A DNA stretch of 64,000 nt from Heliocidaris erythrogramma (taxonomy: Eukaryota > Echinodermata > Echinoidea > Camarodonta > Echinometridae): the NCBI GenBank assembly GCA_025617745.1, contig CM046856.1, positions 33,288,208 through 33,352,207 of the forward strand, given 5' to 3'. Positions 26,401 through 62,709 of this stretch are shown here, in pieces; positions within the stretch are counted from its first letter, which is position 1; every line of letters begins with the position of its first letter. The translations under genes were made by a program, and so were the position numbers. The notes under the pieces were generated by a model. It searched no databases. It was not told the DNA's origin and saw only the letters and a program-made list of their open reading frames with translations.

Positions 26401-29400
26401 GGGTGAAATTGGAACTGGGAAAAAGATGGGAAGGGTATGATAGAATTAAGTCAACATTATGAAGTGTAAGTTTTGTTGAGGCAAGCACAAATTGAAATGG
26501 TACAAAAGAGACAGAAAGAGAGAGAGAGACAGACAGAGAGACAGAGAGAGACAGAGAGAGACAGAGAGAGATAGAGACAGACAGACAGAGACAGAGATAC
26601 AGAGAGACAGAGACAGAGATACAGAGAGACAAAGAGACATGCAGAGACAGAACTACCATTTTTAACCAACAAACAAGAATGAGATACAAAAACAGAGAGG
26701 AAGAAAGATGGAGAGAGACAGACTGAATGCGGAAGAGAAATAGAATAAAACAGAAGGACGAGAGGCATGTGATGTATTGCAAAGAAAAACACCACCAAAA
26801 AAAATACAATTGTCTTCGTGACATAACCCAGCTGTAAGTAGCAAATTATCAGGATATAGTCAATAAGTAAGTAATACTTTTCTAAAGCCCATAGAAGGTA
26901 TTTAGTTGTTATTACTGCTGCATGAGCAAGTCCTTAAATCGCCATTAGGTAGATCACAAAAGAATAGAGTAGGCCAAGAAACTAAATGATAGAGATCGTG
27001 AATAAGATAAAGTTTCTATGAACCTCTGCACTTGGTTCTATCATTTGAACTTCCACAAGTGTTATATCCATTACATAAAACAAACAAACAATAAAAAAGC
27101 AATCGAAACAGATTTGAAAGTGACCAGTTGTGTACAGTGTGAGCATGAATTCTGATATCGTATCGAGGATGATTGCTTTTTATAGGGTATTTGAAAAGGT
27201 GATAATGATTTGGAGGGGGAGATTCAAAGGGTCATTAAGACGGAATATCACAAGTGGGATAAAGATCTTGCAAGGCTGCTTCCAATAAAACACAATAGAA
27301 TAAGTAGGATTTACTTTCCGTGTAATGAAAATGATATGGTGAGGATGAAAGATCATTTCTTGCAACAGAGAGACGTATGTAATTACTTTGGTTTCATGAT
27401 GAGAGAAAAAAAAAAAAAAACTTCCACCTGGCAAGTCCATGCAAAAATCCCTATTCTAAAAGTTTTCTCTAAAACGAAGGTCGCAATACCGAAAGCTGAA
27501 GTAAATCCAAGTAGAAAGAAAGATAAGTGAGAGCCAGAAAGACGTTAACTCTGTGATGAAGATTATTCGCTAAGGCCCTTCTTGTTCCAAACAAAGAGTA
27601 TCACATTGTGACATTAGAGCAGCCATAAATTTGAATCCTCTGCTGTGACTTTGAAATCAAAGCCAAAAGGGCATTAACTCAGTCCTATAACCCTTTCGCA
27701 ACATCAATCCACATTTTGTGGTTTGGCTCAATAACTTTTGATTCAGAGCCCTAAAAACTATACCAGATGCATGAGTAGAAAGAGCAAATATTTATGTGCA
27801 CACACACTGTGTGCATTTTTTATAATGTTGCATGACCATATTGCACTTGATGCCGGGATTTTTCAAAAAGGACAATAAGCTTTAAAATCCAAAAATTGGC
27901 AACACATTGAGAGGTTCAAAATCATTGGTTTTTGATCAAAATTGGCAATTTCGTCAACTCTTCGACGAAGTTCCTCACCATGTATATTGTTTTTAAAGAT
28001 ATATCGCATCTCATTAGAACCATGTAGCACTAAAAGAAAAATTTTACAGTTGCCAATTTGAAGAACAAAATTTGATCAATTTAGCCGTTAAAAAATTCCT
28101 TCCAGAAAGGGTTAACACAGGGTTAACAAACTTCTGGCTCTATAGTCATGGGATAAAAACAGATAGTAATGCTTGCAAAGGATAAAACAATACAACTTGT
28201 GTACTACAAGACTGTCACATGTTTTCATTGTACTTGTTAAGTCCACTTTACTGGTCAGATGACCATAAGTCACTTCTAGAATTCATAATCAGAATTTTAA
28301 AAAATAAGAGTATAAAATCACTGTTTATTCTGTAAGGTAATAATCACATCCTTTAATCAAGAAGCAGTCTCTTCCTTGTGCACTTCAAAATGACTTGATT
28401 TCATATTTTTAGCCTATGTTGTTTAGCTATGCTCATCAAGAAGAGCGGAAATCCTTTACCTCATATTTTCAATTGCATCAGGATTGAAGATGATAGACAA
28501 AATGATATGAAGAAGTTGAAGTTGAGCAGCTTATGGTACTGGAATATTGAAATATGAATCTCTTTTAATTATCATTATTACAGGAGCACTTAACGGTGAT
28601 GCCATGATGCATATATATGTTTTCTAATAACCTTTGACAATTATATGGAGAAAACATGTCCGCTCATGTCTGAGAATTTAGTAAAAGGACATTTTGGGTC
28701 CTTTGAACAACACAACGAATTGATAAGTCGCACATGTATGACATCACACATAATGAATAAATTTCCAATCAGAGATACTCCATATTCAGGGCCTAATAAA
28801 TACTAAAAGGCCTTCAGAACACCCAAAATCTAAGTCCGGACTCCCAAAAATTCCAAATTTTACATAAGGCTCATGCATACACACTATAAAATAGTCAATC
28901 CTGGCCCCCAATGACAAAAAGGTAATAGTGTGGAGCCCTGCATATTAGTAATCTCAGCGTCCAAAAGTTCATAACTTTCTTGTTCTAATCATCAATATCA
29001 ATATTTAATGAAATCAAATTATAGTTTCAGAAAATACAAAATAACACTGACCTAATTAGCCACAAGCGGCAACCATATTATTCCCACTCAGGTACCAGCA
29101 AATATCATCAAAATCATTAAAACACAGTCTAGACTTCCTTTAAATTCCTATAGGATTTTTACACTTGCAAACTGTACCCCACTTTCTATTCAAATTGCAT
29201 TTTACCAAAGTGGGCTTACTCCACGATAGTACAGGATTATTTCAGCCCTAGAAAAAGCAGGGTTAATTAGCCCTACCAAAGGTGGGGTTAAATGTAAAAC
29301 GGTGGGGCTAAGCGCTCTGGCTAGGGAGATAGTACGGGACTAAAACTGCAAATGAGAACAGAAAAGAAATAGGCCGAGTTAAAAAAAGCAAGTGTAAAAA

Positions 29401-32400
29401 GCGTACTAGAGGAAAAAATTTGTTCAATCATTCCAAGGGCATCCTGTTGGTATACAGTTTTCATACTGACTTGAGTAATGGACTGTAATTAAAGAGCTCA
29501 TAACTGTTAGATGTTTTCTTAACCCAAGCTGGTAACACAATGACGAGGGTGAGGTTACAATCAACACAGTGATTTAACAAACATCTAATGGTCGTCAAAT
29601 CCTTAATCATGTGATACAAAGGAAAACTATCATATTTTCCTTCACAAGCTGATCAAATAATTTGTAAAAACTATGCAAGTTGGTGAAATCACTCACTCTA
29701 TGCTCAGAAGGGTTCTGACCAGATATTCAGATCAATATAATCATTTTATATTTAGGTAGAGTGCCACAGGCTGGTTGGCTCAAAGAGAATGCCACTGATT
29801 TGGATCTTACCAATCAACACAGTGATTTAACAAACATCTAATGGTCGTCAAATCCTTAATCATGTGATACAAAGGAAAACTATCATATTTTCCTTCACAA
29901 GCTGATCAAATAATTTGTAAAAACTATGCAAGTTGGTGAAATCACTCACTCTATGATCAGAAGGGTTCTGACCAGATATTCAGATCAATATCGTGTGTTG
30001 AGAGCCAGAAGGGCGTTAACTCTGTGTTAAAGTATATGAGTTAACGCCCTTCTGGCTCTCAACACACGATATAATCATTTTATATTTAGGTAGAGTGCCA
30101 CAGGCTGGTTGGCTCAAAGAGAATGCCACTGATTTGGATCTTACCGATCAATTTCCTTATACTGCCATGCACGTGCAGCCATGTTTTAAGGTACTGAATC
30201 TCAAAGTTGAACTCTGTAACTTCTCATTATCACTTCAAAACTGCATTAGAAATGAAACATTATATTTTCTAAGGACTTTTTTCTAAGTAAAACGTTAGCT
30301 TTCAGGTTGATTTGATAGAGCATTTGTCTACTATTTCAGTTCAATGTTTGTTTTTCCTATTTAATGGAATTCACTGAGTCCATAAAGAAGTGTTATCAAT
30401 AAGAATGTGTTTCTTCATTTTATTTAATCGTTTCCCCGCAAACATGCACTTTGACTTCAATCATCAGGCCATGACGAACTGAAACCCAGTCAATTACATA
30501 CCAAGATACAGGTGATAGTACAGGTAACCTCTGCCAATGCTCGACCTAGACAGCCCCACCCCCCCTTCCCCCTTGACTATTATAGTTTGTGCTACGAGTA
30601 TTAAACATAAAGTTACATAAACTCAACTACCTTCAAAATATATCTAATGAAAGTACCCTGATCTTAAAACGAAGGTCAATAGTCAATATTATGAACAGAC
30701 TTCATATAAATAAAGAGTCTCGAAAAGGTTGAAAGGGGTTGGAAGAAAGAAGTTTCTCAAAAAGATCAACAGGGGGTTGTAAAAGAGATCGCTTGATTGG
30801 CTTTGTTTTATAGGCATGCATATCTTACCTTCCATACCCTGATCTTAAAACGAAGGTCAATAGTGTCATGTACTTGAAAATATTAATGAAGCTGGGTAAT
30901 TCCTTTTAACAATTCCTGATATCTAAGAAGTTAAACAATCAAACATGATCAGCATTCTTCAAGAGAACTTACCAGTACTCCATAAATTAAGAGAGGATAA
31001 GTGTTAGAAGATAATAATAAAACAAAAAACATGCAAGTACCAAATTGTTGCTAGGAAAATGATACAAACACAACCAAGTGTCACAATGGGCATATCACAT
31101 TTTTTAGTCTATTGCTCTTTATTGACTTAAAAAAAGCCTCCTTGAACTATCAATTGTTCGAGAAATGGGTTTCGGATTGACAAATCGTCGTTAAGATTGG
31201 CTTTTTGGGGGCGGCCCGAACTGCAATAAAGCACTAGGACAGTAATGGGACTAATCACCATTACGCTCGCAGCCGGCAAACCTTGTAGCCACACTGAACC
31301 CTGTGGAAGCAATATTTTCAAACCGAGCAATCCGCAGACATAATTTGTTTTATTAAGTAACCATTATCTTGGCACACTGCCGACACTTTTATAGATCTTA
31401 ATGAAATAAAAGACTACTTTATTCCACTACTCAATGGCTCGGTCCGTCTTCTCAATAGTAAATGATTCCTACATTACGCTTTGTACACTGTGACCCATAG
31501 ACCCGAGTACGAACTTTTTATTTATCATGAATCTGAAGTAATAAGGGCTAGTTTGTGTATTTATCTATATCCATATCCTTGCTACACAAAATATGCAGAG
31601 TTTGACAAAATAACAATGAAAAATCTCTGGAGAAAGAGGTTTCTTGTGAAATTAAAGGAGAATTACGCTCAAAAATAAAGACGATAGTGTTCAAAGGTGT
31701 TATTTATTCATACTTGTTAGACTATATGGCTTCACGTCAAAATATACGAGATCGATACGAATCAATTTTTTCTGAGCAAAATTTACCATCTGCTAGCAAT
31801 ATGTATCGTCTGCTAGCAGCACATGGGGGCTGCCATTTTGTTTATGTGTACAAGAAGATTTTCTTAATCCAAATGCTCAATTGCCTTTTTCAAAATTAAA
31901 AACCCATTTGAGATTAAAAATATAGAATAGATATGTCAATTTATTTTTAAACTGAAGATTTCCTTATATATTTCTGTTGAAAATCGATATTCGCTTAATA
32001 GAAATCTATGGACGTATGGGACGGAGCAAATTAATTCAAATTTTATGGATGCTTCTTCCCTGAGCATCTATAGCGGCAAACTATGCATTCACCTGCTTTC
32101 GGATAATGGACTTGAAAAGTCAGAATGCATGCTGCATATATTATGTTCTGCTCTGTTTGGCAAACCCAAGAAAATAGATTTTTGTTAAGCAAAACCAGAC
32201 AATTTAAAAGTATCATTATAAAGATTTAATTTTTATAATACATGTAAACGCCCACTTTATATTTTCCATCACATATAGGATTTTAGGTAATTAAGAAAAT
32301 CAATTTAGGATTTGGATTCAAAATATCTTCCTGACTGGAACATTTCTCAATGGTTCATGTACAACTCCAAATCAGCAAGAAAATGGCAGCCCCCATGTAA

Positions 32401-35400
32401 ATGAGTATGAGACAATACCGGGTGTTGGAATATCTTTATTTATACCCTTTTCTGATATCTTATTAGAAAATGATTTAGGCCAATAAGTAGGAATATATTA
32501 CATCTTCCAATATAAGTAAATTTGTAATCAGGGCTTAATTCTCCTTTAAAATCTCTATAAGGGACTGACTCTGCGAATGATATGTTACTTTGAAAAGTGG
32601 AGATACGCCACGGGCAATGTGAATGATGAAGCTTGTGCATTTTAATGAATAAACCAAATATTTTGTCTGCAAAGAGACAAAAGTGCATGAACTAATGGCT
32701 CTTTATTTTATAGTGTTAATGCCCTTCTAACTCTCAAAAGACCATTTCCAGTGAGGTCTGCACGTGTTCATAAGAAAGGTGGTCTCCCGAGCACACTGTT
32801 TTTTTTAATGGTAGATCGACGACTCATATCCTTACTCATAAAGTTTAATACGAAAATGTTACAGCCTGTATTGAATAACATGTATTCAATGTTGGTTGTA
32901 TATCCTTGAATACAAAAAAGTGTGTGTATACAGTGCATTTTCTTCATCACATTGCAAAGCATTTGGTAATCCTTTTTTAAAAAAAGCCTTCTGCACCAAT
33001 TACATGCAATAAAATGAGGGGAGGGAGGGAGGGGAGGGAGGGGGGAGGGGTTCCAATAGCCATGGAGAAGTCAATTGATCACACCAGCATTATACAAAAA
33101 ATCTGAAATTCATTTTACTTGCCCGAAATTTAAAAAAAAAGTTCCACACCCAGCCCTAGTTCTTTGGGCATGGCCAGGGCCCCCTAAATTGTAGCTTTGT
33201 TGCCATGGTAACAACAGTACAGTAGCTTGCATCCCAGATAGCTTAGATATACCCATGCAGTTATAATCCTATTCCAGCTAAAACTATATCTGAATGCTCA
33301 TGTACTATCACTACATATGTAGGGTTTGCAATGTGCGAACAAAAGCTAAGCCATATTGACAACAGACATTATCTCTCCACAGTATTGACTATCATAGATT
33401 TAGACCAAGAAGGGCGTTAAAACCATGAGTTATTGAGTTAACACCCTTCTGGCTTTGAGCAGACGATATGACTTTAGAGGCAACATGGCTACAGGTGCGG
33501 GCGCTACTTACGCCAAAGAACTAGAAACAATGTTAGGATCGTACATATGAGGGTACAAGCATATATCTGACAGTTTATAAGAAGAATAGAATGGATTTCC
33601 ACTTTTTTCATTACCTTATGGCAGCATTATATACATTCATGTTAGATTCCCTGGTAGTCATATTATGAACAGACTTCATATATATAAAGAGTCTCGAAAA
33701 GGTCTAAAGGGGTTAATGGAAGAAAGAAGTGTCTCAAAAAGAGATCGCTTGATTGGCTTTGTTTTATAGGCATGCATATCTTACCTTCCATACCAAAAGT
33801 GCAAAGACCACAACTGCATTCTTAATACGAAAATAAAAATATTCTGAAGATAGTCCATAAAGGACAATTCTAAATTCATGAAATTATGAAGAACGTTTCA
33901 GCTGAGATGATGTATGAGGTCAAAATCTGAAAATTTGACCCATTCTTTTTAAGAATCTTTCTCAAATGTAGAATGAGTTCTGAAGTGTTCATTACCCAGG
34001 GAAGCCTCACCAGCTTCAATACTGTTCTTCCAGAGAGCCCTGTAATCATTATTACCCCAGCAAGATACCCATCTACACCTGGGTGGAGAGGGACAAATGT
34101 GGGTAAAACGTCTTATCCAAGGACCCAGCAAGAATCGAACCCAGGATCTCTGGTATGAGAGTCAAGAGCCTTCACCAATATACCACAGTGCAATCTGTAA
34201 ATTGGTTCTGTTGCAGAACAACACAAAAACTGTTTTCAACATACTTTTAAACGGATTCCACAGACATTATAATATGATATCAATTCTAATACATAGTCAT
34301 GAATATTGTTCTTAATCAAGAGAGAAACAATATTAATTAGTACACACTAATCTTATTGTATTTAATGTCAGCAAATGATCATGAAATTTGATTTGAAAAT
34401 GACATTTTATTCTGATAATCAAAACTAGAATATACTTCAAAGATTTCACAGTCTGTTCAACAGTACAATTTTGTGCAATTACTTAAAAATCTATTTTCAG
34501 TTCACCTAATTCAAGCTATATGATATAATTTTAAGAAAATAATTACTTATAAAAATCAAACTTGTTTCTCTCTTTTGGTACTTAACCATTAAATTTGAGG
34601 ATAAAACATCCCACATGCACTTTTGCTACATAAGAAAGGTGATATATCAACCCATGAAAGAAAAATATCCACCTAATTTCCATCTTTATCAATTAACCTC
34701 AGAGTGACAGATGAAAGACATAGTGTTATAAAATAATAAATTCATGCATCAAATAAATTTGTATTTACAATTTTTATTTGAAATCATAAATGGTAACTAG
34801 AAAATAAAAAAATAGATAAATCCTAAAATGGAAAATAGTTTCTTATAAATCATCCACTTCTCTCTTTAACTCATTGACAAAAAAACACTATTTTTTATAG
34901 AATGATTCATTAAATTGTCTGTGTGGGAACATTACATAATATCAGAGTTCAATTTTCATAGAATATTCAGTGATAACATTAAAAAAAATGCAACCAGAGT
35001 TTATCAATTAGCAGAGAAATCTAACTGATAAAGGGAGCTGAACATAATATATTTTTAGAAACAAAGTTAATAAAAAAAAAAACATCTTGATATCGTGGAA
35101 AAAAATAAAAATTATACTCTTTCATTTTCATTAACTGTGTCATCTGGTATCTTGAAAAGAAAGTCATCTAAAATTTATACCATTTTAGGGAAGTTCTCTA
35201 ATATTTCTTCTGTATAATTGTTATGTTGTATTAATGCAATTGTGGAAATCAATTTAAGAATAAATCAATTCAAGACAATGTCACTGTATTTGCACCAATT
35301 ACTTGAGTTGCACAGTTACAGCTATAGCTTGGTCAACTGCAGTATACATGTACATGAGTACCCTGAATACTGCCCTAAACTCCCCCTAAGCTGTAGGGCT

Positions 35401-42654: not shown

Positions 42655-43200
42655 TCTTTCTTTCTTTCTTTCTTTCTTTTTCTCTTGCTCTCTCTCTCTC
42701 CCCTCTCGCTCTCTGTTTCGCATTTGTTTCTATCCCTCTAAATCCTTTCTCCCTCATGTCTTTTTCTCTCACCTTATCCCATCCCTTTCTCCATTTTTTT
42801 CTCTCCTCTCTCTTTCACCCTTTCTTCCTTCTTGCTTCTCTTTCCTCTCTCTCTATCCTTCTAATTCAATCTTATCAGCTCAACAGAAGCAAGAGCTGTA
42901 CACTCACACCAAAAGGGGGAGGGTTAGTAGGCCAATAAAAGCAGAAAATAAAATAACACACTGCCTAGCTTTCTCCCTAATGTCTTTTTCTCTCAGAGCG
43001 CCTTATCCCATCCCTTTCTCCATTTTTTTCTCTCCTCTCTCTTTCACCCTTTCTTCCTCCTTGCTTCTCTTTCCTCTCTCTCTATCCTTCTAATTCAATC
43101 TTATCAGCTCAACAGAAGCAAGAGCTGTACACTCACACCAAAAAGGGGGAGGGTTAGTAGGCCAATAAAAGCAGAAAAAAAAATAACACACCGCCTAGCT
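42655..43200. repeat. TC-rich tract and 224-bp tandem duplication
   Basis: A CTTT/TC simple-sequence run at 42655-42715 leads into two tandem units, 42747-42970 and 42971-43200. Each runs from TTCTCCCT through CATCCCTTTCTCCA to AACACACYGCCTAGCT. The differences are few (for example, extra GAGCG in unit 2). No gene is present; the Ser/Leu/Phe-rich frames are compositional. Confidence 0.85.
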
Positions 43201-50423: not shown

Positions 50424-50651
50424 TTCTAAGGTAAGCTCAAGAAAGAATATCAAAGCAATCACTTTCTAAATTCTTTTTTTATTTCAATAGACAGCACTTT
50501 TTATCAAACAAGTGTTATTTCAAATTATTAAATAAAGCTCCTTCTAAGGTAAGCCCAAGAAAAAAGAAGCACTCACTTTCTATTTTTTTTTTAAAATAGA
50601 CAGCACTTTTCATCAAAACAAGTTTTATTTCAAATTATTAAATAAAGCTCT
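50424..50651. repeat. Tandem duplication, period about 118 bp
   Basis: Two units (50424-50541 and 50542-50651) begin TTCTAAGGTAAGC, share AATAGACAGCACTTTT and end ATTATTAAATAAAGCTC. The second is about 8 bp shorter because of deletions. The role is unknown. Confidence 0.8.
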
Positions 50652-60712: not shown

Positions 60713-62709
60713 GGGGTCATCCCTGTAGTTAGCGGGTCCGATAGACCGACACCCAATAGATAGAAGGTTCGATAGACCGAATGTACGAGAGGGTCCAGTA
60801 GACAGAAGGTTCTATAGACCGAATCGGCAGGAGGGTCCAATAGTCCGAAGGTTCTATAGATCGAATGACCAACGGGTCCGATAGTCAGAAGGTCCGATAG
60901 ATAGAAGGTTCTATAGACCGAATCGGCAAAAGGGTCCGATAGTCCGAAGGTTCAGTAGGGGTCCGATAGTTAGAAGGTCCGACAGACCAACAATAAATAC
61001 GTAAAAAGGGTAAATAGTGGATAAAATGATAAGTGGGTAAAAAATAGGTGGTTAAAATAAGTGGGGGCGTTATGTTTTCAGATGTTTTCAAATGTGGGGG
61101 CGGGAATATACCCCCCTCCCACATTTCATGCCTGACTCAGGGGGTTCCAACCAAAGAAAAAGCAAAAAAGGAAGAGGTTGAAAAGGTTGAAAAGGAAAGA
61201 AGGAAAGAAGAGAAAAAGAAAAGAAGAGATCAGAAAGGAAAGAGAAGAAAACAAAAATTCGGTCACTAGCATTATTAGGGTTATTTACCAATGCCCATTA
61301 TATTTTCATTATTGATATTAGTTATTAATATAATCGCCATATTTATGTATATAAACCAATGCCAATTATATTCATAAGTCATATGCTTATGGAAGTTATT
61401 TGGTTTGCATCTTGAATCTCTAGCTAATGTTATGCTATTTTTCTACTCAAAGAATGTTGGCAACATAACTGAAAGGAACCGAGCAGCAAGTTGACCTAAA
61501 GGGGGGCTAAAGAGATGAATTTTCAGAAATAATGGCCTGTGACAATAGTCTCTTCCCAATATGAGAACGGAAGATAATATGTTACACAGATTATGAGAAC
61601 GGAATAACAATACGCTATAGAACCTATTCTCAGGATACAAAATTCTTCTTTTTTTCTCTCTCTCTCGCTCATACAATCAAGAAACTAGGCCTAGAATGTT
61701 CTTGCAGCAAGCACCTCTTACGTCCTGCAGCAACAAGAAGCCCGAATATCATAATATTCGGGCAGTGAGGTATCCGACTATTCTCGAATTACCAAAATAT
61801 CACCTGACAACCCTAATTTATGGAAACGCCCCCCCCCCCCCCCAAGAAGGTGGTAGGGCATAATTGAAACAAAGTCATTTTTATTGGTCAGAATCTTTTG
61901 TTGTCAGAATCTTATCTTTGGTTACTTTTCATGAAAATTCAACTATAAAGTGTGGTGTGCACCCCATAAGATTTCTTTGTTTAAAGCTGCCCTTTCTTCA
62001 GCTTGCTCCACTAGAAAAAAATGCTTCGGGCATGATGGGCCTCAGGGCTTTAGTGTGCACCATATAATTAGATTTCCATGTTTCAAAAAATGGTCAGCGT
62101 TCCCCATTGCCAATACATCGGTTTAGTGGCAAAATTAACCGGGGGCTGAGCTGCATGGGTGGACCACCCCCGCCCCACGGTGATGATGATGATGCTCTGA
62201 TAAAAATACTTTTAACATGTTGAAAATGTATAAAACAAAACTTTAAATTAAGTTACCCATTTTTTTTGGGGGGGGGGAGGGTGGGCCTACAGACCTAGTG
62301 CATCGGTTTATTACAATACACATAGAAGAAGATAAGGCATTACCCTTTTCCTCTTATTAGATAAAACTATTAAAAACTTATTGTATCCACTTATTTTACC
62401 TTTTTTACATTATTGTCGGTCTATCGGACCTTCTAACTATCGGACCCCTACTGAACCTTCGGACTATCGGACCCTTTTGCCGATTCGGTCTATCGAACCT
62501 TCTATCTATCGGACCTTCTGACTATCGGACCCCGCTGGACATTCGATCTATAGAACCTTCGGACTATCGGACCCTCCACCGATTCGGTCTATAGAACCGT
62601 CTGTCTATTGGACCCTCTCGTACATTCGGTCTATCGAACCTTCTATCTATTGGGTGTCGGTCTATCGGACCCGCTAACTATCGGACCTTCTAGCTATAGG
62701 GCTGTAACC
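60713..62709. mobile_element. TU-like foldback transposon, 1997 bp
   Basis: Two long inverted arms (about 60713-61035 and 62380-62709) are built from tandem 15-17-bp subrepeats of the type GGTCCGATAGNNNGAAG and GGTTCTATAGACCGAA. The arms enclose about 1.35 kb of unrelated sequence. The perfect 8-bp duplication GTGTTGCC flanks the element (60705-60712 and 62710-62717). This architecture (long arms, tandem outer subrepeats, 8-bp duplication) is that of the TU foldback elements described from sea urchin. No transposase frame is seen; an 8-bp target fits hAT-type mobilisation. Termini match only about 11 of 16 bases. Confidence 0.88.
61740..61763. repeat. Perfect hairpin inside the TU-like element
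   Basis: GCCCGAATAT and its reverse complement are separated by CATA. It could be a small nested element or a structural feature of the core. Confidence 0.6.

Follow-up and report, generated by a model that had tools for sequence, protein, structure and literature searches.

A 77-bp hairpin MITE in one of two tandem units of a sea urchin genome, and its probable long parent

Results

The window, by which we mean the whole 64,000-nucleotide stretch of DNA analysed here, contains two tandem units, one empty and one filled. Unit A (29558..29810, plus strand) is 253 bp long and empty, while unit B (29811..30144, plus strand) consists of 253 bp plus 81 bp. Direct comparison of the two, which together occupy less than 600 bp, bears out what a first-pass annotation had claimed, namely two tandem 253-bp units with one substitution (C at 29703, A at 29956; 1 of 253 shared positions, 95% interval 0.01-2.2%) and a hairpin insert present in the second unit alone: relative to unit A, unit B shows a net insertion of 81 bp which folds into a perfect hairpin. 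The target site ATAT occurs once in unit A (29735..29738), and unit B reads ATAT-element-ATAT. The join of the duplication carries the near-match C[A/G]ATCAA, and there are zero N in the window. As DNA, positions 29988-30072 fold with -43.1 kcal/mol (z -15), and a 34-base arm gave two matches, both at the locus, against 0 in 100 shuffles. A search of the genome (1.06 Gb) with the unit, in which very common words were skipped and which had one first-look candidate, returned matches at its own locus alone.

Other repeats are found in the window as well. These are two further two-copy tandem duplications, at 42745-43200 (229-bp unit, 95%) and 50424-50650 (110-bp unit, 85%), a 26-mer, CCTGATCTTAAAACGAAGGTCAATAG, which occurs twice (30657-30682 and 30838-30863, spacing 181 bp), and an inverted repeat with 123-bp arms (60874-60996 and 62410-62532; 98%, 1.4 kb apart) adjoining 42-bp tandem arrays.

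At the locus itself, 15 decompositions of the insert fit the sequence, with 0 to 4 duplicated bases; a reading of 79 bp plus TA can thus not be taken from the locus, and other copies were used for that reason. Our survey of ends covered 109 copies with an exact 19-bp arm core, leaving out 15 loci (repeated places, long elements or a mitochondrial gene), and both ends were recognised in 88 copies. Identical 4-mers flanked 74 of these 88: the flanks were ATAT/ATAT in 61 and ACAT, ATTT, ATAC, ATGT, CCCT or ACCT in the other 13, among which L031 and L032 represent a single duplicated place. The flanking 4-mers were unequal in 14 copies, some of which have mutated ends and one of which, L044 (TTAT/ATAT), is an exact 77-bp copy; the remaining 12 of the 13 exact copies all have identical flanking 4-mers. 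Among 71 copies picked for equal flanks, the symmetrised target consensus was about AYATATRT.

Because copies elsewhere carry identical 4-mers that include CCCT and ACCT, the hairpin element is, on comparison of its copies, 77 bp long, CG...CG, with a 4-bp target duplication (ATAT at this locus). Of the earlier description as a 79-bp hairpin with a duplicated TA, the hairpin stands, while the size and the TA, being one of the 15 possible fits, give way to 77 bp and 4 bp. The element occupies 29992..30068 (plus strand) and has 13 exact copies in the genome, its own counted. Its left arm (29992..30022, plus strand, 31 bp) is the reverse complement of its right arm (30038..30068, minus strand, 31 bp), so that 62 of 77 bp are paired, and the loop between them, TGTGTTAAAGTATAT (30023..30037, plus strand, 15 bases), is one among several loop lineages. 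The left duplication ATAT lies at 29988..29991, its 4-bp length being taken from copies elsewhere, and the right ATAT is seen at the locus (30069..30072).

The 19-bp arm core has 3,097 exact matches in 1.064 Gb against 0 for the reversed control, a number which is not a copy count since two matches are possible per copy. Identity over the full 77 bp was found at exactly 13 places on 9 contigs, and, by these searches, the hairpin is a high-copy MITE. The window itself holds a degraded older relative with two inverted arm cores (33403..33455), and further degraded relatives near 27531 and 44849. Arm types and loops form lineages, and among perfect copies with the young type of arm the lineages differ in the loop. 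The outer arm reads CGTGTGTTGAG in the hairpin and CGTCTGTTTGG in the long elements described below, with 3 of 11 terminal positions different. Mixed arms were seen among 87 copies as 10 bc, 4 ad and 2 ac.

Both ends were recognised in 51 copies of the contig C1 sample, and 10 of these have perfect arms. In this sample, the 23 copies whose two arms are both of the young type showed 47 arm differences, 29 of which come from L033 and L040, two copies shifted by indels; the comparison also includes the duplicated places L013/L015 and L105/L107. Not one of the 47 differences was matched on the other side. Homogenisation, in which one arm copied onto the other keeps the hairpin perfect, is thus not supported, and the perfect hairpin reflects youth rather than repair between arms; working ends may also be under selection. 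Six pairs of places on C1 are near-identical (L012/L014, L013/L015, L029/L030, L031/L032, L092/L093 and L105/L107), being segmental duplications or retained haplotypes, and all six were found because the element is present in both members. A scan of viral contigs with a 20-mer of the arm gave no match, and the sole match of a literature search on the arm sequence concerns, in the part of the article cited, a human protease (PMC4481513).

A second pair of filled and empty sites was found at L005 on C10, where an empty copy about 820 bp off is 144/150 identical and has ATAT once. More distant, element-free relatives of insertion sites were found for L003 (five loci, 77-82%), L052 (82%) and L072 (79%), with ATAT not kept in the relatives of L003 and L052 shown. 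The earlier claim that the hairpin is mobile is right, on sequence evidence that now reaches beyond the locus, because 13 identical copies lie at different places, with 4-bp target duplications, a second filled/empty pair and these more distant related empty sites.

We also considered a target duplication linked to transposition, which is not supported, as local duplicates at insertion sites are without clear enrichment. A local duplicate spans the site in 3 of 46 insertion sites, of which this locus is one, and spans random points in 28/720 (34 loci) and 34/1460 (window). At an identity of at least 95%, the counts are 2/46 (L005 and this locus) against 2/720 (both in L005 and L008) and 7/1460; leaving this locus aside gives 1/45, numbers too small to speak of an excess. 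The side-by-side arrangement is probably not special, and appears to reflect the coincidence of two common features rather than a new mechanism.

Long relatives carry the same inner arm. Two end pairs proved to bound single elements about 7.8 kb (ATAT/ATAT) and 6.7 kb (ATGT/ATGT) long, both with the hairpin's inner arm, and additional copies of the arm motif occur near the ends of long elements. Using either end of the 6.7-kb copy (L122) as query gave 77 and 74 candidates, 40 of each being scored, and many of them, by pairing of coordinates, are about 7 kb long. No gene was recognised in L122: 27 reading frames of at least 55 aa were listed, and the 11 scanned with Pfam gave a sub-threshold SPAN match only and no transposase. 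A segment of this copy (L122:3375-3709) has inverted ends that begin TTAA and is missing from the sister copy; it looks like a nested MITE.

A diverged relative on C1, L145, has a right end that is 86% identical, and its frames match the N-terminal domain and zinc finger of other proteins in the genome, some of them in open frames as long as 1117 aa; in Pfam, L145 gave just a sub-threshold match to a Tc5 zinc finger. Weak collinear relics of both domains are present in the long copies L123 and L149, and a relic of the N-terminal domain alone in L122 and L147 (E 0.02-0.09). Upstream of the right end at C1:66370546, matches to the N-terminal domain, the zinc finger and a DDE-like core are collinear on the minus strand. 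The core match (C1:66362719-66363192) is one of 57 listed and is 38% identical to the query. By the match listing it lies in a 588-aa stop-free open frame inside C1:66358657-66364999, and its strand and order agree with those of the two L145 domains.

The right end of this C1 element is directly followed by CTAT, and on the assumption that the element duplicates 4 bp, its left end was predicted to read CTAT-CGTCTGTTTGGAGCC. This 19-mer has 10 matches in the genome, one of which lies at C1:66357138, 13.4 kb leftward and in the correct orientation, and over its first 327 aligned positions the left end found there matches that of L122 at 88%. The 13.4-kb element thus delimited (C1:66357142-66370546, protein matches on the minus strand) combines CTAT on both sides and a 4-bp duplication with the hairpin's inner arm and with transposase-related matches, while its outer arm differs from that of the hairpin at 3 of 11 positions. 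It is the probable source of the enzyme moving the hairpin, and the matched frame would then encode a DDE transposase which acts on it.

The core-query proteins, two large proteins on C2 (L148) and C15 (L150), are 60% identical over 588 residues and have in common the blocks FDLQQV, DGCVGQNKN and NHGQSEGD, which may be read as a DDE-type catalytic domain. Pfam placed DUF7869 below its cut-off in both (25.5 and 18.8 against 26 bits), and the C2 protein gave nothing from NCBIfam or solved structures. Around these two proteins, no arm motif within 3 mismatches was found in 5.0 and 8.8 kb, and the pair L150/L151 showed neither element ends nor arm motif. L150 and L151 are 99.3% identical over nearly all of 8.8 kb on C15 and C18, and contain a 743-aa DUF7869-like frame. 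Literature searches for DUF7869, and for GQNKN together with transposase, found none.

Discussion

The insertion is real and recent, and the element of an ordinary kind, with a corrected boundary and a probable parent. Its kind is already known, namely a MITE with Sola2-like duplications: it is 77 bp long and non-coding, has 31-bp perfect inverted arms and a constant 4-bp duplication (74/88), and occurs in many dispersed copies. With the MITE class it shares shortness, the absence of coding capacity, inverted repeats, target duplication, high copy number and longer relatives sharing its inner arm, and it differs in being very short and nearly all arm.

Sola2-type elements make 4-bp duplications of AWWT and ATAT/AAAT/ATTT according to the section cited (PMC3627910), and the hairpin family likewise has AT-rich 4-bp duplications; Sola2 fits by duplication and would be a candidate family, in a comparison based on descriptions, although its arms are given there as 12-21 bp against 31 bp in the hairpin. 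Ginger2/TDD elements are summarised as duplicating 4 bp at AT-rich sites, RTATAY, with ends TGTNR (PMC2836005); the hairpin shares a 4-bp AT-rich duplication, at a target of about YATATR, but has ends CG...CG, and no integrase domain was among the Pfam results for the relatives L148 and L150. For Chapaev (CMC), the excerpt cited gives 3-4-bp duplications, insertion of Chapaev3 between A and T, and ends CAC...GTG (PMC4079192); the duplication length is compatible, but the hairpin has CG...CG instead. Taken with the definitions in these excerpts, duplication or ends speak against Chapaev, Ginger1 and Ginger2. Tc1/mariner is disfavoured as well, since copies show 4-bp duplications rather than TA. 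Academ elements have duplications of 3-4 bp. The 3 bp stated for Academ in the passage cited (PMC5199201), against 4 bp in the hairpin, disfavours it less firmly than Tc1/mariner, Chapaev or Ginger. Under the Repbase family rule as excerpted, which asks for equal duplication length and allows one mismatch when ends are compared over 11 positions (PMC4455052), the older-arm hairpins group with the long elements; the young type seen in the window differs at 3 of 11.

Taken as a whole, the best explanation, and one that we regard as highly probable, is a tandem duplication followed by the insertion of a MITE moved in trans by an enzyme that the 13.4-kb element likely supplied. A single-copy 253-bp stretch would have been tandemly duplicated, with a breakpoint at the near-match C[A/G]ATCAA. 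A 77-bp non-autonomous cut-and-paste MITE, nearly all terminal inverted repeat, would then have entered the ATAT of the second unit and duplicated these 4 bp, moved in trans by a transposase recognising the arm sequence. The likely source of this transposase would be the 13.4-kb element, with its related ends, 4-bp duplication and zinc-finger/DDE-like protein matches inside.

Duplication first and insertion after is the simplest order, and to that extent the first-pass dating of the insertion to the time of the duplication or later holds; its firmness does not, since a filled unit may have been duplicated and unit A then left precisely by the element, or unequal exchange may have brought a filled allele together with an empty one, either of which would leave identical sequence. 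Some transposons with 4-bp duplications do excise cleanly, as described for piggyBac in the part of the source cited (PMC7351741). Such a history needs an additional step for which the sequence gives no call, and we consider it rather improbable. A Tc1/mariner-type MITE of 79 bp duplicating TA, as implied by the earlier numbers, is indistinguishable from the 77-bp element wherever the site is ATAT, this locus included; copies flanked by CCCT/CCCT, ACCT/ACCT and ATAC/ATAC, together with CTAT/CTAT around the 13.4-kb C1 element, leave it next to no credibility.

Another reading concerns the assembly, in that the two units could be separate haplotypes, one carrying the insertion and one lacking it, misplaced in tandem by the assembler. 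The six near-identical pairs of places in the C1 sample, 97-447 kb apart, could be unpurged haplotypes, and their substitutions (0.3-1.9%) form a range into which the difference between the units falls. On the other hand, the window is without N, no further copy of the unit was seen elsewhere in the genome, the whole duplication is shorter than 600 bp with a near-match at its join, ordinary long reads would span that length and hence both units, and tandem duplications of 110- and 229-bp units occur elsewhere in the window. Judged from the assembled sequence, haplotype mis-joining is unlikely.

Adjacent filled and empty copies show plainly what the element adds, while copies elsewhere correct the ends and the length of the duplication, and these two features decide the family. 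A very small form, at 77 bp, is joined within this family to a likely parent gene, and how little DNA such a transposase needs thereby becomes testable. A bolder and doubtful view would place the hairpin, the 7-kb elements and the 13.4-kb element in one lineage whose zinc-finger and DUF7869-like DDE protein is undescribed as a transposase superfamily. This lineage would target the palindrome AYATATRT and have arm motifs repeated close to the ends of its long elements; if so, the 77-bp hairpin would be its smallest known substrate.

As for the host, the mitochondrial contig C24 carries COX1. Read with AAA as asparagine, as in the echinoderm code, C24 shows the motifs expected of COX1. What is presumably the large ribosomal RNA stands in front of it, and the sequence probably resembles that of sea urchins.
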